From Aneurinibacillus terranovensis DSM 18919 (GTDB lineage Bacteria > Bacillota > Bacilli > Aneurinibacillales > Aneurinibacillaceae), in assembly GCF_000430625.1 (NCBI RefSeq), contig NZ_KE387171.1:100240-164239 (forward strand): a DNA stretch of 64,000 nt. The letters are read 5' to 3'. Both the position numbers and the translations under genes were made by a program. The first letter of the stretch is position 1. Each line of letters starts with the position of its first letter. The notes under the pieces were generated by a model that did not search any database, was not told the DNA's origin, and saw nothing but the letters and a program-made list of their open reading frames with translations. Shown piece after piece: positions 1 through 56,741 of this stretch.

Positions 1-29
1 ACTGTAAAGCAACATATACTTTCTTTAAC
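1..29. repeat. 3' tail of the two-hairpin repeat element
   Basis: These bases match the last arm of the element found complete at 21080-21334 and 35703-35959 (arm TAAAGCAACATATACTTTC followed by TTTAA). The rest of this copy lies outside the window. Confidence 0.8.
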
Positions 30-32
30 GAT

Positions 33-91
33 AAAAAAGGCTCCAGGTTCATCCGTATACCTGAAAGGTATACAAACAAACGTGGAGCCTT
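33..91 (-). terminator. Nested-hairpin terminator after the DUF2292 gene
   Basis: The outer arms AAGGCTCCA (37-45) and TGGAGCCTT (83-91) pair. An inner perfect stem, GTATACC (55-61) with GGTATAC (67-73), sits in the loop. On the minus strand the outer stem runs into six T residues, so it reads as an intrinsic terminator for the small gene and the Rrf2 gene. Confidence 0.75.
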
Positions 92-113
92 CGGCTGTCC
101 GATCGGCTTCTTC

Positions 114-311
114 TTATTTTTTCTTTTGGGACGGGAACGATGAAATCCGGGATGAAGGAGTTTTGGCTTCCAATGGGAACCGGCTTTTTACCGTTTTTTC
201 CATCTGGGTAATTTTCGAATCGTGAATGGTTATAACCAGCGATCCATATTGGATGTCCTCCAATGCTTCCAGAATCATTTGAACTTCCGGATCATCCCGA
301 TGTTTACACAT
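114..311 (-). CDS. YezD-like DUF2292 small protein
   Basis: This 65-residue protein matches the DUF2292/YezD pattern: an acidic amphipathic start, then a segment of the form YGSLVITIHDSKITQMEKT, then a basic tail. Such proteins are common beside sulfur-assimilation genes in Bacillales and their biochemical role is unknown. An in-frame ATG five codons upstream exists, but that ATG is itself part of the GGAGGAG ribosome site; the site is correctly spaced for the ATG at 311, which is the start used here. The gene overlaps the end of the Rrf2 gene by 8 bases, so the two are translationally coupled. Family call is fairly sure; function is not inferred. Confidence 0.8.
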   Translation of the reverse strand: MCKHRDDPEVQMILEALEDIQYGSLVITIHDSKITQMEKTVKSRFPLEAKTPSSRISSFPSQKKK

Positions 312-750
312 ACGTAACTCCTCCAATCCTTTGCATTTCCAGATTTCCCGTTAATAAATCCCCCAGTGTGGTATTATCCAGCACTTGTGCGATGGTATCG
401 CGTATTAAACCCCACAGAGGTTTGAGTAAACAGTTCTGTTCCAGGGGACAAGATTCATAAGAGGTTAAACTAACACATCCCATCGGTGCAAGCGGACCTT
501 CCAGCTTACGGACTACTTCCCCAATGCAAATTTCCTCGGGCTGCTTACGCAAGGTGTATCCGCCTTGTGCACCACGCTTACTTTTGACAAAGCCGTGCAT
601 CTTTAACTGGAGAAGGATTTGTTCAAGATAATGAACAGGAACTAAAGTCTGTGCTGCAATCTCACTAATGGGAATGACCTGGTCATTATGCCGGCCCAAT
701 ACGATGAGAGCACGCAGCGAATACTCCCCTCTGCTTGAAATCTTCATCAT
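304..750 (-). CDS. Rrf2-family transcriptional regulator, possible Fe-S sensor
   Basis: The 148-residue protein has the Rrf2 layout: an N-terminal winged helix (MKISSRGEYSLRALIVL at the start, SEIAAQTLVPVHYLEQIL as the recognition region, KSKRGAQGGYTL wing) and a dimerisation helix. Residues about 90-110 carry three cysteines spaced C-x8-C-x5-C, as in cluster-binding family members (IscR, NsrR); B. subtilis CymR lacks them. That suggests an iron-sulfur or thiol sensor, not a plain CymR. It overlaps the DUF2292 gene and lies downstream of metH-metF, so sulfur metabolism is a reasonable inference. A GGGGGGAG ribosome site precedes two adjacent ATG codons; either could be the start. A palindrome in its own leader suggests autoregulation. 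Confidence 0.85.
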   Translation of the reverse strand: MMKISSRGEYSLRALIVLGRHNDQVIPISEIAAQTLVPVHYLEQILLQLKMHGFVKSKRGAQGGYTLRKQPEEICIGEVVRKLEGPLAPMGCVSLTSYESCPLEQNCLLKPLWGLIRDTIAQVLDNTTLGDLLTGNLEMQRIGGVTYV

Positions 751-2977: not shown

Positions 2978-5900
2978 TCAATCCGCGTTAAAATATCTTG
3001 CTTCCGGATGAGAGAATACCATAGCGGATACAGAGGCTTCCGGTTCCATCATGCAGCCCTCTGTCAGTACGACTCCGATATCTTCCGGATTCATCAGGCT
3101 AAACAGCAGCTCCTGATCCTCCAGGTTCGGGCATGCCGGGTAGCCAAACGATACCCGTATTCCCTGATAGCGCGCGCCAAATCGTTCGAGCATGGTCATG
3201 TCAGCCGGATCCGGGAATCCCCATCCATCCCGAATCATATGGTGGATGCGTTCCGCATAAGCTTCCGCCAGTTCAAGCGCCAGAGCCTGCAGCACGTGGG
3301 ACCGGAGATAATCCCCTTTGTTCTTCCATTCTTCCGCTTTCTCACGGATTCCCTGCCCTGCAGTGACAACGAGAAAAGCAATATAGTCCATAACGCCGCT
3401 GTCAATCGGCTTGACAAAGTCGGCGAGGCAGAGATAAGGTTCCTCTTTCTGACGCGGGAATGTAAAAGTTTTAATAATTTTGCTGTGGTCGTTCGGATCA
3501 TAAATATATACATCGTTATCTTTGGACTGGGCCGGGAAGAAGCGGTACATGCCGTGGGCTTTAATTAAACCGGTCGTTTTCGCTTCCTCAATCAATCCAT
3601 CAATAACTTCTTTAAGTTCAACTGTTTTCGGATCTCCTTCTGCGAGAAGTTTATCGACATTTCCGCGTACACCAAGGTGTTTGCCAATCAGCATCCGCAG
3701 ATTTAAATACGGCTGCAGATACGAAAGCGGGTAATCGGTAAAAATATGGCGTTCCAAATCGGGCGCTATATATAACGGTGTATCAACGCTTATCGCAGAG
3801 CGCTTCGATTTGGATGAAGCGGTTTCCTTTTCATCCTCCGCCTTTGTCTTTGCCTCCAGCTGTGCCTGACGGATTTCCTGCAGCTTCTGTACGAGCCGTT
3901 CATTTTCCTCCGGATTCGTAATCTTATTTGCCAGATCCAGGCCGTCCATCGCATCTTTCGCATAGAGCACCAGCCCCTCATATTCAGGCGTAATGCGGGT
4001 TTCAGTAAATTTACGAGTGAGGGCCGCACCTCCGACCATAATCGGAGCCTCAATTCCTGCCGCGCGTAAGTCCTGCGCCGTTGTCACCATCTGCTGGGCT
4101 GATTTAACGAGAAGCCCTGACAATCCGATCATATCCGGCTTTTCTTCGCGGTAAGCCTGAATAAGCTGTTCCGGCGGCACTTTAATGCCGAGGTTAATAA
4201 TTTTATAGCCGTTGTTCGAGAGAATGATTTCAACCAGATTTTTTCCGATATCGTGCACGTCGCCTTTTACCGTGGCCAGAAGAACCTTTCCTTTTGTGGC
4301 GGTTTCCGTCTTTTCCATAAACGTTTCCAGGTAAGCGACAGATGCTTTCATGACTTCCGCACTTTGCAGCACTTCGGCCACGATCAGCTGGTTATCGTTG
4401 AAAAGGCGCCCAACCTCGGCCATGCCGTCCATCAGCGGACCGTTGATGATTTCAAGTGGGGAATATTTCTCGAGCGCCAACTGCAGGTCGGGAATCAACC
4501 CCTCCTTCGTGCCTTCCACAACATAATAACCAAGGCGTTCCTCCAGCGTGAGGTTAAGCACTTCTTCCGATTTCTTTTCTACTTTTTTCTCGCGGTAAAA
4601 GGCTGTAAAGGAAGCGAGATTTTCATCATTCGTATGAAACAGGAGATCCTCGGCCATCTTCTTCTCTTCGTCAGGGATCGATGCGTAACGCTCTAATTTC
4701 TCCGTGTTTACAATCGCGTAGTCGAGGCCGGCCTTTGTACAATGGTACAAGTAGACGGCATTGAGCACTTCACGGCCCGTCGCAGGCAACCCGAATGAAA
4801 CGTTGCTGACACCGAGAATCGTCTGGCACTGCGGGAACTCTTCCTTAATCAGTCGGATGCCTTCCACCGTTTCCTTGGCTGAACCGATATAAGCTTCATC
4901 CCCTGTTCCTACCGGGAACACAAGCGGGTCAAAAATAATATCATGCGGGTCAAGCTTGTGTTTGTTGACGAGTAAATCATAGGAACGTTTGGCTATCTCA
5001 AGCTTGCGTTCCGCGGTTACACCCATTCCTGCTTCATCGATTGTTCCGACGACAACGGCGCTGCCGAACCGCTTAATCAACGGCAGCACTTCTTCAAACC
5101 GCTTTTCCCCGTCTTCGAGATTAATTGAATTGATAATGGCTTTGCCCTGGGAATACGTAAGAGCAAGTTCGATGACCGATGCGTCGGTCGAATCAATCAT
5201 GAGCGGCACTTTTACCTTTTTCGCAACAAACTTTAAAAACTCTTCCATATCCTTTTTTTCGTCGCGATCCGGGTCGGCAAGGCATATATCAATCACGTGG
5301 GCCCCCCGTTTAACCTGGGCGCGCGCAATTTCAGATGCTTCTTCATACTGACCGTCCGCAATCAACGTCCGGAATTTTTTGGAACCGATAACGTTCGTCC
5401 TCTCTCCAACAAATAACGGGCGGTTATCCTTTTCCAAATAAACCGGTTCAATCCCCGATACTGCATGGCCATGCTGTTCGGCTGACTGGCGGGGTGGGAT
5501 ATCTTTTAACGCCTCGCTTATCGCCCGGATATGGTCAGGCGTCGTACCGCAGCATCCGCCGGCAATATTAATCCAGCCTTTTTCTGCGAATGCTGCTAAT
5601 TTCACGGCAAGCCCCTGCGGCGATTCATGGTAATGCCCGTCTTCGTCCGGCAGACCTGCATTCGGATAGCAGCTAACGGCACAGGAGGCCAACCCGGAAA
5701 GAGTGCGTATATGGTCGCGCATAAATTCCGGCCCGGTCGCGCAATTGAGCCCGATCGAAATCGGTTTCAGATGTTCCAGAGAAAGGTAGAAAGCTTCTAT
5801 GTTTTGCCCGGCAAGGGTCGTTCCCATCGGTTCAATCGTGCCTGAAATCATCACCGGAACCTTGCGGCCAAGCTTCTCAAACGCTTTGTTGATACCGATT

Positions 5901-6439
5901 CCCCCCGCTTTTACATTCAGCGTATCCTGCGAGGTTTCAAGGAGAAGCACGTCGACTCCCCCCTCAATAAGCCCTACTGCCTGTTCATAGTAGGACTCAA
6001 CCAGTTCTGTGAACGTTGTCCCACCGGTGACAGACAATGTTTTCGTTGTAGGTCCCATTGATCCGGCAACATAGCGGGGCCATTCTTCCGTAGAATACTT
6101 GTCGGCCGCTTCCCGTGCCAGGCGGGCCGCCTCTCTGTTGATTTCCAGTGCTTTATCCTGCAGGTCATATTCAGCGAGAACAATCGATGTGGCACCAAAG
6201 GTGTTTGTTTCAATAATGTCGGAGCCTGCCTCCAGGTAGGTTTCATGAATGCTTCGGATTACATCGGGGCGTGTAAGGTTTAACATTTCATTGCACCCTT
6301 CATACTGCTCGCCGCCAAAATCTTCAGCCGTTAAATTGGCCTGCTGGAGCATCGTCCCCATCGCGCCGTCCAATACGAGGATTTTTTTCTGTAATTGTGT
6401 CTCCATGGGAGTTTTTATAAAGGTTGCGGTTTCGCTCAT
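2978..6439 (-). CDS. metH: Cobalamin-dependent methionine synthase
   Basis: The 1153-residue protein has the full MetH order: homocysteine barrel (residues about 20-320, GGCCGTTPDH zinc motif), pterin-binding methyl-THF domain (about 350-620), helical cap (about 650-740), B12 domain with the base-off histidine motif GDVHDIGKN (about 750-900), and the SAM-binding reactivation domain to the end (GYPACPNLEDQ). A longer in-frame reading would begin inside the riboswitch terminator, so the ATG at 6439, behind AGGAAGGG, is used. It heads the metH-metF operon, so the methyl donor and acceptor enzymes are made together and repressed by SAM. Confidence 0.96.
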   Translation of the reverse strand: MSETATFIKTPMETQLQKKILVLDGAMGTMLQQANLTAEDFGGEQYEGCNEMLNLTRPDVIRSIHETYLEAGSDIIETNTFGATSIVLAEYDLQDKALEINREAARLAREAADKYSTEEWPRYVAGSMGPTTKTLSVTGGTTFTELVESYYEQAVGLIEGGVDVLLLETSQDTLNVKAGGIGINKAFEKLGRKVPVMISGTIEPMGTTLAGQNIEAFYLSLEHLKPISIGLNCATGPEFMRDHIRTLSGLASCAVSCYPNAGLPDEDGHYHESPQGLAVKLAAFAEKGWINIAGGCCGTTPDHIRAISEALKDIPPRQSAEQHGHAVSGIEPVYLEKDNRPLFVGERTNVIGSKKFRTLIADGQYEEASEIARAQVKRGAHVIDICLADPDRDEKKDMEEFLKFVAKKVKVPLMIDSTDASVIELALTYSQGKAIINSINLEDGEKRFEEVLPLIKRFGSAVVVGTIDEAGMGVTAERKLEIAKRSYDLLVNKHKLDPHDIIFDPLVFPVGTGDEAYIGSAKETVEGIRLIKEEFPQCQTILGVSNVSFGLPATGREVLNAVYLYHCTKAGLDYAIVNTEKLERYASIPDEEKKMAEDLLFHTNDENLASFTAFYREKKVEKKSEEVLNLTLEERLGYYVVEGTKEGLIPDLQLALEKYSPLEIINGPLMDGMAEVGRLFNDNQLIVAEVLQSAEVMKASVAYLETFMEKTETATKGKVLLATVKGDVHDIGKNLVEIILSNNGYKIINLGIKVPPEQLIQAYREEKPDMIGLSGLLVKSAQQMVTTAQDLRAAGIEAPIMVGGAALTRKFTETRITPEYEGLVLYAKDAMDGLDLANKITNPEENERLVQKLQEIRQAQLEAKTKAEDEKETASSKSKRSAISVDTPLYIAPDLERHIFTDYPLSYLQPYLNLRMLIGKHLGVRGNVDKLLAEGDPKTVELKEVIDGLIEEAKTTGLIKAHGMYRFFPAQSKDNDVYIYDPNDHSKIIKTFTFPRQKEEPYLCLADFVKPIDSGVMDYIAFLVVTAGQGIREKAEEWKNKGDYLRSHVLQALALELAEAYAERIHHMIRDGWGFPDPADMTMLERFGARYQGIRVSFGYPACPNLEDQELLFSLMNPEDIGVVLTEGCMMEPEASVSAMVFSHPEARYFNAD

Positions 6440-6506
6440 CTGTTTCGTTCCCTTCCTGGCTGTTACGCCCTTTTCTTTCACATATAAATTTCTTGCGTAT
6501 AAGTAT

Positions 6507-6668
6507 AAAAGGCCTTCCCTTATCAGGAAGGCCTTATCATCGAGGTAAGACTGTAGCACACGATCTTATCTCTCAGGAAAACCTTCTCCTGCTGGAATTG
6601 GCACCGTTGCATGTGTATGCCGGTTGCCGGGCGTCATCGGGCCAGTCCCTCAGCCTGCTCTTGATAAG
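6507..6668 (-). ncRNA. SAM-I (S-box) riboswitch with terminator
   Basis: On the minus strand the aptamer opens with CTTATCAAGAG, followed by GAGGGACTGGCCC, GATGACGCCCGGCAACC, GGTGCCAATTCC and closes with GAGAGATAAG, all diagnostic S-box segments. It spans about 6564-6668. The expression platform is a GC-rich hairpin, AAGGCCTTCC with GGAAGGCCTT, and a T-rich tail at 6507-6535. High SAM should terminate transcription before metH. Confidence 0.97.
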
Positions 6669-6693
6669 AAAAATAATTCTTTTATTTTTTATA

Positions 6694-16935: not shown

Positions 16936-16995
16936 TCCTCTTTTTTGTTAAGCTGGATCGGTGCCCTGCTCGCCTCGTTTATTATTAGTATTGTA

Positions 16996-17095
16996 AAGAA
17001 AACTTGGCTAGCACCAAGCCAAAGGCGCAGACGATAGCCTTAGTTGCCCTTATGCGTGTAAGAAAGTTATGCTTTCTTATACGTTAAAAAATGCA
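16996..17095. repeat. TTGGCTAGC repeat family, copy 1
   Basis: It contains GAAAACTTGGCTAGCACC, AAGCCAAAGGCGCAG and ATAGCCTTAGTTGCCCTTAT, then a hairpin GTAAGAAAG / CTTTCTTATAC. It closely matches 35965-36030 and partly 55228-55280. The remainder of this gap (17096-17207) shows nothing recognisable. Confidence 0.65.
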
Positions 17096-20995: not shown

Positions 20996-21075
20996 AAAAG
21001 AGCGTGTGAGATGCATCGGGTCGTTCTTTTTTGCAGAGTTTTCCCTTGTGTGGAAGCGTCAACTGTCCGTGTTAT
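20996..21075. repeat. Dispersed repeat, copy after patA
   Basis: This is the counterpart of 16842-16935, beginning just after the patA stop codon and ending against the two-hairpin element at 21080. Confidence 0.5.
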
Positions 21076-21079
21076 GTAA

Positions 21080-21334
21080 GAAAAACTCGCGGGCGTTGCC
21101 GCTCGTCCTTTTTCTGCAGGGAAGCGAACGGCCGCTTAGTGACCGGAAGTCGGACCGACAAAACATCCGGGTACCTCAATGATGGAGACAATTGTCGGTC
21201 TGATCGACCTTCCGGCCACACGCTCCACATCGAAAAAGCAACGTTCGGCACACTCCCGCGAGTTTTTCTCAGGTGACCCATGGAGGAAAGTATATGTTGC
21301 TTTAACACTGTAAAGCAACATATACTTTCTTTAA
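21080..21334. repeat. Two-hairpin repeat element, complete copy A
   Basis: The first unit (21080-21268) is bounded by inverted ends GAAAAACTCGCGGG and CCCGCGAGTTTTTC, with nested inner arms (ACCGGAAGTCGGACCGACAA against TTGTCGGTCTGATCGACC). The second unit (21286-21329) is a 19-bp perfect hairpin, GAAAGTATATGTTGCTTTA with its complement and a 6-base loop. It is nearly identical to 35703-35959. No coding frame of interest is present, so it is probably a MITE or REP-like element. Confidence 0.85.
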
Positions 21335-21458
21335 TGCCAAAAAAAGGGGTACCTGTACGAAACATCCAGGCAGCTCGAAAAGGGAGACAATCGGACAGGA
21401 AAGACGTCCCCCTTTTCGTCTTAACATTAGGTCGGAAAGAAAACGAAAACTATGTCGG

Positions 21459-29838: not shown

Positions 29839-31281
29839 CTAAATTTGGAAGGATACAAACTTTGTCTCTAAGAATTCTTCCATGGCGTAGCGGCCGCCTT
29901 CACGTCCAATTCCACTCTCTTTAAAGCCTCCGAAAGGCGCCTGTGTCTGGGTAGGTGCCCCGTCATTAATTCCGACAATTCCATATTCCAATGCTTCAGA
30001 CATGCGGAAGCAGCGGGAATTGTCTTTCGTATACACATACGCAGCGAGGCCATAATCCGTATCGTTTGCCAGTTCAATGACTTCGGCCTCCTCCCTAAAT
30101 GCAACGACCGGTACAACGGGACCGAATGTTTCTTCATTATAGATCTTCATTTCTTTTGTAACATCCAGTACAACCGTAGGTTCACAGAAGAAACCTTTTC
30201 CGTATTCCCCGTCTGTTAGGCGGTTTCCACCAAAGACGATCTTTCCGCCCTTTTTCTTCGCATCATCAATGTGGTCTAACACCTTTTGCAGGCCGCGCTC
30301 GTTAACAAGCGGACCGATTTCCGTTGCTTTATCGCGGCCGTCGCCAACCTTTGCGTTCTTTAAGCGCTCAACTAGTTTCTCGGTAAACGCGCTGACAATT
30401 GACTCCTGCACATACAAGCGGTTCGTACAAATGCACTGCTGGCCGGTATTGCGAAACTTGCTTTCAAACAAGCCGGCTACTGCGGCATCCAAATCCGCAT
30501 CCTCAAATACGATGAAAGGTGCGTGCCCGCCCAGTTCAAGGCTCACACGCTTCACAGTTTTGGCTGCGGCTTCCATTAACAATTTGCCTACGCGGGTCGA
30601 ACCGGTAAAACCGACCTTGCGCACTTTCTTGTTTCCTGTAAATTCTTGACCAACCGATTCAGGTTCCCCAATGACGAGATTGACGACGCCTTTCGGGAAG
30701 CCGGCCTGTTCGATTAGTTCGAAGAGACGAATCGCGCTTAAAGGCGTACTTTCAGCCGGCTTGAGTACAACAGTACAGCCGGCTGCGAGAGCCGGAGCAA
30801 TTTTACGTGCTACCATATTTACCGGGAAATTCCACGGAGTAATCGCTGCAACGACGCCAACCGGCTGCTTATTTACCATAATCCGCTTGTTTGGAACAGA
30901 AGAAGGCACGGTTTCCCCGTATACGCGCTTCGCTTCTTCAGCATACCACATAAAATTATCAGCAGTACCGAGTACTTCCCCTTTTGCTTCACGCAGAGGC
31001 TTACCCATTTCTGCGGAGACGATGCCTGCCAGCTGATCGCGATCGTTGCGGACGAGTTCGTACAGGTTATATAAGTATTTCGAGCGTTCACGTGCCGTTA
31101 GTTTGGACCAGCTTTTAAAAGCGACATCTGCCGCGTCAATTGCTTTTTGGGCATCCCGGCTGTCGCCAAAGGTAACGATGCCTACTGTTTCACCGGTAGA
31201 AGGGTTGATGACCTCAAGCTTGTCTCCGCCTTCTGCTTCTACCCATTCCCCGTTAATATACATCTTCTTTAGTTCTGCCAT
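29839..31281 (-). CDS. NAD(P)-dependent aldehyde dehydrogenase, paa-linked copy 1
   Basis: The 480-residue enzyme belongs to the succinate-semialdehyde dehydrogenase-like branch of the ALDH superfamily. The catalytic cysteine is residue 283 (TGQQCICTNR) and the general base lies in ELGGHAPF. It ends a paaABCD operon, so the likely substrate is the open-chain aldehyde made from oxepin-CoA, the step done by the ALDH half of PaaZ in Escherichia coli; no hydratase domain is attached. GGAG 9 bases upstream favours the ATG at 31281 over a GTG three codons earlier. A close paralogue is at 45804-47246. Confidence 0.88.
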   Translation of the reverse strand: MAELKKMYINGEWVEAEGGDKLEVINPSTGETVGIVTFGDSRDAQKAIDAADVAFKSWSKLTARERSKYLYNLYELVRNDRDQLAGIVSAEMGKPLREAKGEVLGTADNFMWYAEEAKRVYGETVPSSVPNKRIMVNKQPVGVVAAITPWNFPVNMVARKIAPALAAGCTVVLKPAESTPLSAIRLFELIEQAGFPKGVVNLVIGEPESVGQEFTGNKKVRKVGFTGSTRVGKLLMEAAAKTVKRVSLELGGHAPFIVFEDADLDAAVAGLFESKFRNTGQQCICTNRLYVQESIVSAFTEKLVERLKNAKVGDGRDKATEIGPLVNERGLQKVLDHIDDAKKKGGKIVFGGNRLTDGEYGKGFFCEPTVVLDVTKEMKIYNEETFGPVVPVVAFREEAEVIELANDTDYGLAAYVYTKDNSRCFRMSEALEYGIVGINDGAPTQTQAPFGGFKESGIGREGGRYAMEEFLETKFVSFQI

Positions 31282-31317
31282 GGAGAACACTCCTCTGCTT
31301 AAATTTTTCTCTCTTTA

Positions 31318-33986: not shown

Positions 33987-34053
33987 TTCAGGTCCTCCTT
34001 TCAGAATCGTTACTCATGTTTCCACTATAAAAATTTTATAAAACGTTTTTATA

Positions 34054-34089
34054 ACGTTATAATAACATATCGTCATATAAATGTGTCAA
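34054..34089 (-). promoter_or_regulatory. Promoter and PaaX-box candidate of paa oxygenase operon 1
   Basis: On the minus strand TTGACA (34084-34089) is followed by TATTAT at 19 bases. The imperfect palindrome ACGTTAT-A-ATAACAT (34054-34068) covers the -10. The surrounding text ATAACGTTATAATAACATAT is nearly repeated before paaA copy 2. Confidence 0.65.
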
Positions 34090-35399: not shown

Positions 35400-35702
35400 A
35401 TGACAGTCGTCTCTGAACGCGTTCCACAGGTCCTTGAATCCTATTTTGTACCAAAAATAAACGTCGCTTATCCCGAGTTCATTCAGGATCGAGAATGGGA
35501 TCCTGCCGGGGGCAGCGAATCGATTAGCTGGCAGTTTGAAAATCAAGCAAAAGTTACACTGCGGTTTTATTCCGAAGATACAGCCAAAATTCAATCGATG
35601 CCTGCAAGCCTCGTCCTTCCGGAAGAAGGCGAAGACGGATGGTTTTATACCGCGCAAGAAATTCACCTGTTCTTAACCAAAATTAAACGTTCTTTCTGCT
35701 GA
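35400..35702 (+). CDS. Hypothetical 100-residue protein, 3' end at a repeat
   Basis: I do not recognise this protein. It is soluble and acidic, with segments YPEFIQDREWDPAGGSESISW and FENQAKVTLRFYSEDTAKIQ that look like a real fold, and AAAGGTG is placed before the ATG. It is divergent from paaX. The stop codon TGA uses the first two bases of the inverted end of the repeat at 35703, so the native C-terminus may have been lost to that insertion. Confidence 0.6.
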   Translation: MTVVSERVPQVLESYFVPKINVAYPEFIQDREWDPAGGSESISWQFENQAKVTLRFYSEDTAKIQSMPASLVLPEEGEDGWFYTAQEIHLFLTKIKRSFC

Positions 35703-35959
35703 GAAAAACTCGCGGGCGTTGCCGCTCGTCCTTTTTCTGCAGGGAAGCAAAACGGCCGCTTAGTGACCGGAAGGTCGGACCGACAAAACATCCGGGTACC
35801 TCAATGATGGAGACAATTGTCGGTCTGATCGACCTTCCGGCCACACGCTCCACATCGAAAAAGCAACGTCCGGCACACTCCCGCGAGTTTTTCTCAGCTG
35901 ACCCATGGAGGAAAGTATATGTTGCTTTAACACTGTAAAGCAACATATACTTTCTTTAA
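35703..35959. repeat. Two-hairpin repeat element, complete copy B
   Basis: The ends GAGAAAAACTCGCGGG (35701-35716) and CCCGCGAGTTTTTCTC (35880-35895) are perfect 16-bp inverted repeats. The second hairpin (arms 35911-35929 and 35936-35954) is identical to that of copy A. It separates the 100-residue gene from the end of the central paa operon. Confidence 0.87.
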
Positions 35960-35964
35960 CGTTA

Positions 35965-36030
35965 AAGAAAACTTGGCTAACGCCAAGCCGAAGGCGCAGG
36001 CAATAGCCTTAGTTGCACTTATGTGTATAG
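35965..36030. repeat. TTGGCTAGC repeat family, copy 2
   Basis: GAAAACTTGGCTAACGCC, AAGCCGAAGGCGCAGG and ATAGCCTTAGTTGCACTTAT match copy 1 at 16996-17095. As there, a terminator-like hairpin follows directly. Confidence 0.65.
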
Positions 36031-36061
36031 GAAAGCCACGACGGCGAATGTCGTGGCTTTC
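36031..36061 (-). terminator. Hairpin at the end of the central paa operon
   Basis: GAAAGCCACGAC and GTCGTGGCTTTC form a perfect 12-bp stem with a 7-base loop. It reaches into the stop codon of the last gene. The minus-strand tail is not T-rich, so strength is uncertain. Confidence 0.6.
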
Positions 36062-36473
36062 AGGATCCGATTCGGATTTGCTCCTGGATTCGCTCAATCC
36101 GTTTGGCCATATCCGTTTTTTTAAAGAACGCCTGGATAAAGGAACCTTGCCCCACTATGTTTAGATTGGTATGCGCGGTCACTTCGCAGACGACCCTTTT
36201 CTCATTGACTTCCGTACATACGGCTTTAAAACGGACGACCTGCCCAACGACAGCCGGTCCGATATGCTTGATATCGATAGAAAAGCCCGCCCCTTCCTCA
36301 TCGTCCTCAAGATACGGCAGGATAACATAGCGGCCGGCTTTCTCCATGTAATAAATCATCGAAACCGTTGAAAGAACGGGATGGACAACTTCCCCATCGA
36401 ATGCCGGCATCATCGATTCTTCAACGATGATTGAAAAATCCGCTGTTATCCCTGGTACGAGCCCTTCTTTCAT
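36060..36473 (-). CDS. FlK-like hot-dog thioesterase
   Basis: The 137-residue protein resembles fluoroacetyl-CoA thioesterase-type hot-dog proteins (IVEESMMPAFDGEVVHPVLSTVSMIYYMEKAG split over residues 17-48; GFSIDIKHIGPAVVGQVV). It is the last gene of the 12-gene central operon, 4 bases after the thiolase. It may release free CoA from dead-end acyl-CoA intermediates. Since no PaaZ hydratase is present and that domain also has a hot-dog fold, a role in ring opening can be imagined, but no motif supports it. Confidence 0.75.
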   Translation of the reverse strand: MKEGLVPGITADFSIIVEESMMPAFDGEVVHPVLSTVSMIYYMEKAGRYVILPYLEDDEEGAGFSIDIKHIGPAVVGQVVRFKAVCTEVNEKRVVCEVTAHTNLNIVGQGSFIQAFFKKTDMAKRIERIQEQIRIGS

Positions 36474-45577: not shown

Positions 45578-45662
45578 ATTTAATATTTTAAGTATATTAA
45601 TAATGATAAATCTTCGTCAAGATTTATTTTTTAGAATTAATTAGCCGCTGAACAAAAAAAAT

Positions 45663-45789
45663 AAGAAACACTCGCGGGGCATTGCCTCTTGTTATTCCCC
45701 CACACAGGAATCAAACAGCCGCTTTGTGGCACGGTGGACGCTCCACAGGGAAAAAGCAACGTTTGACTCATACTTCGCGAGTATTTCTT
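45663..45789. repeat. Degenerate, shorter relative of the hairpin element
   Basis: Imperfect inverted ends AAGAAACACTCGCG and CGCGAGTATTTCTT bound 127 bases that keep GCAACGTT and CAGCCGCTT blocks of the first hairpin unit; the second hairpin is missing. It lies between ALDH copy 2 and the central operon promoter. Confidence 0.6.
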
Positions 45790-45803
45790 CGCTTACAAAT
45801 AGA

Positions 45804-47246
45804 TTAAAGGCCAAACGATACAAATTTTATTTCTAAAAATTCTTCTAGCGCGTAGCGACCGCCTTCCCGTCCGATTCCGCTTTCTTTGAATCCCCCAAAT
45901 GGCGCCTGGGTTTGTGTCGGCGAGCCGTCGTTTATACCTACAATGCCGTATTCAAGTGCTTCTGACATCCTGAAGCAACGGCTGTTGTTTTGTGTGTAGA
46001 CATATGCTGCCAGTCCATAATCTGTATCATTCGCCAACTCTACAACTTCGGCCTCTTCTTTAAATGTAAGAATCGGAACAACAGGCCCGAAAGTTTCTTC
46101 CGTATAAATCTTCATATCAGGCGTTACATCCGTAATTACAGTTGGCTCACAGTAGAAGCCTTTGCTATATTCGCCATCTGTCAGACGGTTTCCGCCGTAT
46201 ACAATATTCCCGCCTCTTTCCCGCGCATCGTCGATATGATCCAACACTTTGTTTAAACCGTTTTCATTCACCAATGGCCCGATTTCTGTATCCATGTTTC
46301 TTCCGTCGCCGACCTTCGCTTTTGTCAACCTCTCAACCAGCTTGTTTGTAAATTCCTCTACGACAGACTCATGAACGTACAATCTATTTGTGCAAATACA
46401 CATCTGTCCGGAATTAAAGAATTTACTTTCAAATAAACCCGTCACTGCAGCATCAAGATCCGCATCGTCAAAAACAATGAATGGCGCATGGCCGCCTAAT
46501 TCAAGGCTCACTCGTTTTACTGTTTTCGCTGCGCCCTCCATTAATAGCTTCCCTACACGTGTAGAACCGGTGAAAGCAATCTTGCGCACTTTTTTATTGT
46601 CTGTAAACTCTTTGCCAATGGATTCCGGATTTCCAATGACAAGATTGACAACGCCTTTCGGGAATCCTGCCTGTTCAATTAATTCAAACAAACGAATGGC
46701 GCTAAGCGGAGTTCCTTCCGCCGGTTTTAACACAACCGTACATCCGGCTGCCAATGCAGGAGCAATTTTACGCGCTACCATATTCACAGGAAAATTCCAT
46801 GGAGTAATCGCGGCAACAACTCCTACAGGGTGTTTCGTTACCATAATACGTTTATTCGGAATAGTGGAAGGCACAGTCTCTCCATAAACTCGTTTCGCCT
46901 CTTCTGCATACCACATAAAGTTATCCGCAGCCCCAAGTACTTCACCTTTCGCCTCACGGAGGGGTTTTCCCATTTCGGCACAGATAATGCCAGCCAATTC
47001 ATCGCGATGAGTACGAACCAGTTCATAGAGATTATTTAAGTATTTGGATCTTTCTCTTGCCGTTGCCTGAGCCCAGCTTTTAAACGCTGCATCTGCTGCA
47101 GCGATCGCTTTTGCCGCATCACGGCTATCACCAAAACTAACGCTTCCTACCGATTCACCTGTTGCCGGATTGATGACTTCTTGTGTTTCTCCGCTTTCTG
47201 CCTCTATCCATTCACCATTGATATACATTTTTTTGCTATCTGTCAT
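45804..47246 (-). CDS. NAD(P)-dependent aldehyde dehydrogenase, paa-linked copy 2
   Basis: The 480-residue paralogue of the enzyme at 29839 has the catalytic cysteine again at residue 283 (SGQMCICTNR). Most of the core is identical by eye, with changes spread evenly, so the duplication is old or the copies came separately. The ATG at 47246 fits the family start better than one 14 codons upstream. It closes the second paaABCD operon. Confidence 0.88.
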   Translation of the reverse strand: MTDSKKMYINGEWIEAESGETQEVINPATGESVGSVSFGDSRDAAKAIAAADAAFKSWAQATARERSKYLNNLYELVRTHRDELAGIICAEMGKPLREAKGEVLGAADNFMWYAEEAKRVYGETVPSTIPNKRIMVTKHPVGVVAAITPWNFPVNMVARKIAPALAAGCTVVLKPAEGTPLSAIRLFELIEQAGFPKGVVNLVIGNPESIGKEFTDNKKVRKIAFTGSTRVGKLLMEGAAKTVKRVSLELGGHAPFIVFDDADLDAAVTGLFESKFFNSGQMCICTNRLYVHESVVEEFTNKLVERLTKAKVGDGRNMDTEIGPLVNENGLNKVLDHIDDARERGGNIVYGGNRLTDGEYSKGFYCEPTVITDVTPDMKIYTEETFGPVVPILTFKEEAEVVELANDTDYGLAAYVYTQNNSRCFRMSEALEYGIVGINDGSPTQTQAPFGGFKESGIGREGGRYALEEFLEIKFVSFGL

Positions 47247-47313
47247 ATCGTATAATTCTCCTCCAGTTGTAAAGGAAATTTTACTCATTCGTCTGTTAAT
47301 GTCCTGCTGTCTC

Positions 47314-49979: not shown

Positions 49980-50016
49980 GCGCAAACCCCCTATAAATTT
50001 ATATTACGTTTTTATA

Positions 50017-50040
50017 ACGTTATACTAACATATCGTTATA
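50017..50040 (-). promoter_or_regulatory. Promoter and PaaX-box candidate of paa oxygenase operon 2
   Basis: ACGTTAT-A-CTAACAT (50017-50031) is a two-mismatch palindrome over the minus-strand -10 TAGTAT. TTGTTA lies 17 bases further upstream. The flanking TTATAACGTTATA matches that of operon 1. Confidence 0.6.
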
Positions 50041-50050
50041 TATATAACAA

Positions 50051-55171: not shown

Positions 55172-55227
55172 TATAGAAAATAAGTGTTCAAGCGTCCTGG
55201 ATCACTTGACAAACGTAGTAAACCCTG

Positions 55228-55280
55228 TAAGCTAGCGCCAAACCGCTGGCGATGACCTTAGTTGCACTTATGCAGATGAG
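55228..55280. repeat. TTGGCTAGC repeat family, partial copy 3
   Basis: GCTAGCGCCAAACCGCTGGCGATGACCTTAGTTGCACTTATGC matches the second half of copies 1 and 2 (shared block CCTTAGTTGCACTTATG), and a terminator hairpin again follows directly. Confidence 0.55.
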
Positions 55281-55285
55281 AAAAA

Positions 55286-55317
55286 GGCTGTTTTATTCAA
55301 AACTGAATAAAACAGCC
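55286..55317 (-). terminator. Terminator of the sigma-54 activator gene
   Basis: GGCTGTTTTATTCA and TGAATAAAACAGCC form a perfect 14-bp stem with loop AAAC, followed on the minus strand by TTTTTCTC. It may double as an upstream activator site for the agmatinase promoter 130 bases away. Confidence 0.85.
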
Positions 55318-55319
55318 GC

Positions 55320-56741
55320 TTACTCATTCAAACTTGAATTGCCTTTGTATTTTTGCAGGCGCCGCACGACAGAAGGCTGGCTAATACCGAGTAAGTCCGC
55401 CATTTGTTGGGTGGTCCGGCATTGTTCGTACGCTTTCAGTATAACTTTTGCTTCCACCTCTTCCAGGATATCCTTTAACTTTCTCTGCGGGTGAATTTCC
55501 ACATCCAAATCTGTTTCATCCCGATCATGTAGCTGCAGGATATCAGGCAGTTGAAATTTTGTAATAACACTCCCGTCCGTTGTCACGACGAGCCGTTCTA
55601 TCAAATTTTCCAGTTCCCGCACATTCCCCGGCCAGGAGTATTCCAGTAAAGAACGGGTCGCCGATTCATCTATCCGCTTCTCCATATCGTATTTCTCCGT
55701 AAACTTCTGGAGAAACACCTGAATCAGAGGCAAAACATCTTCTTTTCGCTGTCGCAAGGGAGGGATCAGGATAGGGACCACGTTTAATCGAAAATATAAA
55801 TCCTCGCGAAACTTCCCCTGTCTTACCATTTCCTCCAGATTCTTATTCGTCGCGGCAATTAACCTAAAATTTACCTTTTTCATTTTTGTCGCACCCACGG
55901 GTGTAAATTCCTTTTCCTGAATTACTTTTAACAGTTTCGCTTGAAGGGACAAAGGCATCTCGCCAATCTCATCAAGAAATAGCGTCCCTTCATCGGATAA
56001 CTCGATAATGCCAGGCTTGCCCGATTTATTTGCACCTGTGAAGGAACCCGCTTCATACCCGAATAATTCAGACTCCAGCAGCCCCTCAGGAATCGCGCCG
56101 CAGTTCACCTCAATAAAAGGACCGTTCTTTCGTTCACTTTTCCGATGAATGGCGTGGGCAATGACATTCTTCCCTACGCCGGATTCCCCTAATAAAAGCA
56201 CCGTCGCATCCACTTTGGATACACGCTGCACGAGTTCCATCACCCGCTTCATGCCGGGGCTCGCCGAAATTACACCATCGATGCGCGTCTCTTTATCCCG
56301 CAATTCTTCCAGTTCCGTTTCGTATCGCCTGATCTGTTCCGTCAGCCGTTCGTAATTCTCTTTGAGCGACATAATTTCCGTCATATCATGGGAATAACTG
56401 ATAACACGGACGATTTTTCCTGACCCGTCATATACCGGATAAGCGGTAGCCATCACAAACTTGCCTGTCTTTGTATGTTGAATAATCTGCTGCTTCTTTT
56501 TTTCCTTTAAAACCTTCTTCGTAACAGACGGAGAGAAAATCGCCCTTTTTTCAAGGTCAAACACATTACTCCCGATTAAATCTTCAGGTGGAATGCCATA
56601 TATTTCATGGCAGTTGGCACTCACACGCAGAACTTTTCCTTCACCGTCCGTGACTACAATATTATCTTTCGACGTATGAATAATTGCATTTAGTTCCATC
56701 ATCACTTCGTCCAATTGCTTTTGTTCATCAGTCTTACCCAT
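55320..56741 (-). CDS. PAS-domain sigma-54-dependent transcriptional activator
   Basis: The 473-residue enhancer-binding protein has a PAS domain (residues about 12-125, VVTDGEGKVLRVSANCHEIYG), a linker coiled coil, and a AAA+ domain (about 150-380) with Walker A GESGVGKN and Walker B LFLDEIGEM. The sigma-54 contact loop is GSFTGA, where GAFTGA is usual. A Fis-type helix-turn-helix ends the protein (TTQQMADLLGISQPSVVRRL). Both flanking operons have sigma-54 promoters, so it very likely controls them in response to a small molecule sensed by PAS. Confidence 0.93.
   Translation of the reverse strand: MGKTDEQKQLDEVMMELNAIIHTSKDNIVVTDGEGKVLRVSANCHEIYGIPPEDLIGSNVFDLEKRAIFSPSVTKKVLKEKKKQQIIQHTKTGKFVMATAYPVYDGSGKIVRVISYSHDMTEIMSLKENYERLTEQIRRYETELEELRDKETRIDGVISASPGMKRVMELVQRVSKVDATVLLLGESGVGKNVIAHAIHRKSERKNGPFIEVNCGAIPEGLLESELFGYEAGSFTGANKSGKPGIIELSDEGTLFLDEIGEMPLSLQAKLLKVIQEKEFTPVGATKMKKVNFRLIAATNKNLEEMVRQGKFREDLYFRLNVVPILIPPLRQRKEDVLPLIQVFLQKFTEKYDMEKRIDESATRSLLEYSWPGNVRELENLIERLVVTTDGSVITKFQLPDILQLHDRDETDLDVEIHPQRKLKDILEEVEAKVILKAYEQCRTTQQMADLLGISQPSVVRRLQKYKGNSSLNE

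Follow-up and report, generated by a model that had tools for sequence, protein, structure and literature searches.

A 263-bp repeat dispersed through the draft genome of Aneurinibacillus terranovensis DSM 18919 is inserted, judging from the sequence of its junctions, in fixed orientation directly behind intrinsic terminators, a point that is central here and that the first-pass annotation had missed. We consider it probable that this is a non-autonomous mobile element, inserting in one orientation at the 3' edge of intrinsic terminators and moved in trans. The window, i.e. the whole 64,000-nucleotide stretch analysed, had been described as holding two near-identical complete copies of a 257-bp unit, the tail of a third (1-29) and a degenerate shorter one (45663-45789). 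Both complete copies were confirmed and are 98% identical; the unit is indeed a repeat, but flank comparison carried it a few bases past both edges, to about 263 bp. The tail belongs to a real copy (L142) broken by an assembly gap immediately before the window, and the shorter one is a divergent member lacking the inner hairpin. The features concerned are as follows.

1..32, minus strand: third copy, its start in R orientation; the remainder is beyond the assembly gap, upstream of position 1
33..95, minus strand: intrinsic terminator preceding the third copy and separating it from the Rrf2-type gene 304-750(-)
21077..21337, minus strand (R orientation, following the target terminator): complete 263-bp element, delimited by flank comparison
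~21338-21425: target of the first complete copy, a long hairpin that is part of an older divergent hairpin element
35700..35962, minus strand: complete 263-bp element, delimited by flank comparison, immediately following the 3' end (TTTTCTTTA) of a copy of a second repeat, D5
35788..35816, plus strand (also 21163-21191): motif AACATCYGGGTANCTCAATGATGGAGACAA, conserved in the apical loop of the hairpin core
45660..45795, minus strand: degenerate member without inner hairpin or start palindrome and with no terminator to be seen at its edge

The older divergent hairpin element (21338-21425 and ~21020-21076) surrounds the first complete copy, an arrangement that recurs at loci L006 and L029.

A genome-wide count, which the first-pass annotation had proposed as a check, gave about 70 copies. 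The terminal 15-mer, allowing at most 2 mismatches, matched 149 times across the whole genome (74 + 75) compared with 10 matches (5 + 5) for a reversed-pattern control, and as each copy has two ends this corresponds to the number given. Among 121 candidates in the 4.25-Mb draft genome, 40 were scored as near-full copies with 95-100% identity; variants included inner-hairpin deletions, truncations, one tandem pair and one copy whose hairpin is apparently inverted. The draft assembly breaks inside many copies, and the sequence taken from this genome consists of the stretches around them, from which 56 distinct sites, 44 with both flanks, entered the junction analysis.

A long hairpin and a 22-bp palindrome make up the fold of each complete copy, with a stability (z = −11.3 on the plus and −11.5 on the minus strand) reached by none of 200 shuffled sequences. 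In R orientation, a single base N precedes CGTTAAAGAAAGTATATGTTGC, which forms the palindrome, followed by a short spacer, a 195-nt hairpin closing with CCCGCGAGTTTTTC and a final TCA or TTA. The true outer ends are thus NCGTTAAAG and TCTYA (or, described more broadly, CGTTAAAGAAAGTATA and hairpin-GTTTTTCTYA), and they are not inverted repeats of each other; the "perfect inverted ends" reported earlier, GAGAAAAACTCGCGGG and CCCGCGAGTTTTTCTC, are the foot of one internal hairpin. An integron cassette was considered and set aside on inspection, as the ends do not fit the GTTRRRY/RYYYAAC layout. The small GGAGG...ATG signal was likewise dropped, being unconserved among the copies (GGAAG in L020 and L027), and a bidirectional promoter in the 22-bp palindrome (TTGCTT-18-TATACT) was rejected since it is not retained in relatives. 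The view of the repeat as encoding no protein was supported; it is a non-coding, dispersed mobile element.

Alignment of the 56 sites in R orientation revealed a hairpin, a T-run, an optional A and one base N, then the element from CGTTAAAG through to its closing hairpin-GTTTTTCTYA, followed by variable sequence. The T-run of the upstream terminator stands at a fixed distance from the element, followed by N-CG, with few exceptions. In a scan for a stable hairpin followed by a T-run, 51 of the 56 flanks upstream in R orientation scored positive, compared with 3 of 44 downstream flanks and 17 of 112 dinucleotide shuffles. Two of the five sites missed (L029 and the copy at 21080) have, by inspection, hairpins that exceed the length limit of the scan, and a few sites (L002, L012) are without a clear terminator. 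The same asymmetry was found for four related genomes, with terminators upstream at 27 of 38 sites in G001, which is of the same genus (6 downstream), 20 of 23 in G002 (5 downstream), 5 of 5 in G009 (0 downstream) and 6 of 8 in G010 (1 downstream). The preference for an A after the T-run was weak when set against background terminators (30/67). The gene next to the element usually points toward it, and 37 of the 46 core copies in G001 are co-directional with replication in R orientation, a figure that assumes the origin at base 1 and that leading-strand gene terminators would produce as well.

Not all of the terminators in question stand at gene ends. At two sites with an Rfam match for the leader and an identified protein, the element separates a T-box from tyrS and a glycine riboswitch from gcvT. 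By sequence inspection, it also lies between pheS and a T-box-like leader without an Rfam match above threshold, as well as in the glpK-glpD leader. The presence of leader terminators or attenuators (tyrS, pheS, gcvT, glpD) among the sites indicates that the target is the terminator itself. As tyrS and pheS need to be expressed, presumably either the hairpin lets some transcription in that direction through or the element brings a promoter.

The second repeat, D5, shares the layout of the 263-bp element. It begins like GCGTATAAGAAAG, within a palindrome, and closes with a hairpin bearing TTTTCTTTA; several of its copies sit behind terminators. Three copies lie in the window.

16994..17085, minus strand: D5 repeat with start palindrome (CGTATAAGAAAG...CTTTCTTACACG), unfilled, i.e. 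with no 263-bp element behind it
35963..36030, minus strand: D5 repeat behind the terminator (~36031-36061) of gene 36060-36473(-)
55220..55287, minus strand: D5-like repeat that immediately follows the terminator of gene 55320-56741(-)

The 263-bp element follows the TTTTCTTTA end of D5 directly at six loci, and D5 follows the TTTTTCTCA end of the element directly at two; comparison of filled and unfilled D5 copies fixed the junction. In G001, some core elements (L084, L099, L109, L116) contain relatives of D5 within their hairpin loop.

Apart from these repeats, the window holds a SAM riboswitch (6563-6670, minus strand), which precedes the long gene 2978-6559(-), and two copies of an AT-rich palindromic motif (34032-34082 and 49995-50045, 88% alike) which adjoin a PaaX-type regulator gene and the end of a thiolase/aldehyde-dehydrogenase cluster and are possibly operator sites. 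Two paralogous genes (29839-31290 and 45804-47288) are 76% alike over 300 bases, the second encoding an aldehyde dehydrogenase.

Comparison with relatives for empty sites, another of the checks proposed earlier, revealed orthologous sites without the element. At tuf, glnA, a peptidase gene and the glpD leader, the orthologous terminators are filled in the window genome and empty in G001; the three that were found in G002 (tuf, glnA and the peptidase gene) are empty of the 263-bp element there as well. The G002 glnA site carries GTACGCCCGGCATGGG at the same place, which by its sequence looks like a relic of that genome's group IIC intron start. No target-site duplication was recognisable at the 44 two-flank sites, a result that covers duplications longer than 1 base. 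The earlier suggestion of mobilisation in trans is supported: we judge the element, dispersed and with empty sites in relatives, to be mobile and probably dependent on functions supplied in trans. A search for an autonomous element, or for a transposase or REP-associated tyrosine transposase with matching ends, found none in the draft assembly, which is broken inside many copies.

These observations bear on the proposal that the repeat is a MITE. The element resembles MITEs in being short, palindromic, non-coding and present in many copies, presumably moved in trans, and a classical MITE would owe its movement to a DDE transposase encoded by an IS element that shares its terminal inverted repeats. 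However, its true ends are no inverted repeats, the 44 two-flank sites display no target duplication, a transposase with these ends was not found, and the element is orientated in a fixed manner to a structural target, namely a terminator. Thus, the classical MITE reading is largely refuted and we regard it as very improbable. The proposed likeness to REP elements did not hold either. REP elements associated with RAYT genes are described as palindromes of 20-40 bp with a conserved GTAG or CGTC tag (PMC3733652). Our element is 263 bp long, no conserved tetranucleotide tag of the GTAG/CGTC type was seen in it, and the Y1 transposase loci examined in this genome are not flanked by element sequence and have nothing in common with it. 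With bcr1 and other stem-loop repeats of Bacillus (Bcr1, Bhal-1), which are dispersed, structured, intergenic repeats of Firmicutes measuring 70-170 bp or more, the element shares these described traits, but no terminator target is described for them in that work (PMC2267715).

The hairpin core also occurs in other families of Bacilli. A model of its central 145 nt matched 18 of 151 sampled Bacilli genomes, including several families outside that of Aneurinibacillus, some with at least 16 scored copies; genomes with the core motif, where named, belong with few exceptions to Aneurinibacillus species, among them Aneurinibacillus sp. Ricciae_BoGa-3. Loci L255-L265 from other Bacilli families comprise many copies of the 145-nt core with different outer stems. 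Rfam searches at gathering and relaxed thresholds gave no match to the 263-bp element, nor did a search of plasmid and phage records, and a literature search, with subscription journals outside its coverage, found nothing on it. Two divergent-type hairpin-core elements, the second in opposite orientation, are carried by the viral contig IMGVR_UViG_3300045599_000080 (L273, 12700-13130).

The consensus fold of the core was computed on a filtered set from which unrelated sequences were left out. The apical stem covaries strongly: its score of 0.359 compares with 0.119 ± 0.017 for shuffled data and also exceeds slid controls by a wide margin. Template switching can also correct palindromes, so that covariation alone is no proof of selection. 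Mismatches in the stems comprised 213 G-U and 242 A-C pairs, without strand bias; this balance indicates that neither strand behaves as a wobble-tolerant RNA and speaks against a purely RNA-level structure. The idea of a structured RNA module, also raised by the first-pass annotation, therefore holds in part: the core is conserved and covaries strongly, but no G-U over A-C bias marks an RNA strand. A related explanation takes the copies as a selected functional module, i.e. RNA structures of 3' ends and leaders that serve mRNA stability, processing or regulation and owe their placement to selection instead of targeting. The conserved core and its covariation across Bacilli families would agree with it, as would some divergent copies at orthologous places in G005 and G007 (L049, L057). 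However, near-identical copies occur at unrelated loci, orthologous sites are empty, the element lies downstream of the termination point, the stems carry no strand bias, and no common function would be expected behind the attenuators of tyrS, pheS, gcvT and glpD, which together make this explanation improbable.

A Y1 (HUH) or other hairpin-recognising transposase acting by IS200/IS605-like single-stranded DNA transposition, with the terminator standing in for the element's own hairpin-TTTTTCTYA end, would share the descriptive part of our preferred explanation and differ from it in the enzyme. Like non-autonomous IS200/IS605-type elements, the repeat has hairpins near both ends, a target conserved on one side and no target duplication; its stems are conserved at the DNA level, i.e. 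strand-symmetrically, and Y1 transposase genes are present in the window genome and most relatives. It differs from them in targeting a hairpin plus T-run and in lacking a match to the resident Y1 loci, whose ends have no sequence in common with it, and the numbers of Y1 genes do not track those of the element (1-2 in G001 and G006). Known targets of IS200/IS605 elements are short sequences and not terminators. We consider this enzyme assignment doubtful.

A terminator target is also known from group IIC introns, as bacterial-C introns insert just behind intrinsic terminators (PMC8919778). Four group IIC introns of G001 start at hairpin-T-run-A/GTGCGCCCGG (slash, junction), i.e. directly behind intrinsic terminators, in fixed orientation and at the same type of site as the element in these genomes. 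The protein they encode is recognised by the group II reverse transcriptase/maturase model, but, its reading frame being short, it scores under the cut-off for full-length matches. In contrast to these introns, the 263-bp element has neither ribozyme domains nor a reverse transcriptase gene. No group II intron (domain V) Rfam match was obtained in the window, the element starts with NCGTTAAAG and not GTGCG, and no sequence is common to the element and the group IIC intron ends. A direct sequence relation was also discarded, as BLAST matches at intron loci turned out to be D5 or element copies nearby. First-look counts amounted to 63-141 element candidates in six family genomes with a GIIM-domain match compared with 6-53 in five without, a correlation that is no more than suggestive of a link with group IIC introns, since the counts are unconfirmed matches, the genomes are related, so that kinship confounds the comparison, and G009 has only a weak GIIM match. 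Degenerate element copies were also found in G006, which has no GIIM match.

In our preferred explanation, a trans-supplied enzyme would recognise a hairpin plus T-run, probably in single-stranded DNA, and join the CG-TTAAAG end of the element behind the target terminator, which the element's own terminal hairpin and T-run would resemble. The junction reads 5'-terminator hairpin-T-run-(A)N/CG-TTAAAG...GTTTTTCTYA/-3', with a variable far side, and insertion behind terminators would spare coding genes. As to the supplier, the reverse transcriptase/maturase of a resident group IIC intron is tentatively the leading single candidate, attractive because the target is shared. A hairpin-recognising transposase or recombinase comes next as a somewhat unlikely one; a hairpin-recognising DNA transposase would fit better with the absence of strand bias. 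A SINE-like relationship, in which the 263-bp element and D5, having only end features in common, are copied in trans at the same target by the group IIC reverse transcriptase, appears unlikely. Copies truncated at the 5' side, a sign of target-primed reverse transcription, were not seen among the copies, the truncated ones resembling deletions.

Rfam has no model for the widespread structured repeat family of Bacilli that the hairpin core identifies. While descriptions of small dispersed bacterial repeats usually name no target, the target here is sharply defined, common to group IIC introns and recurrent in several species, so that the mover of such repeats becomes directly testable. Moreover, elements placed between an attenuator and its gene, as at tyrS and pheS, may affect the regulation of such genes.
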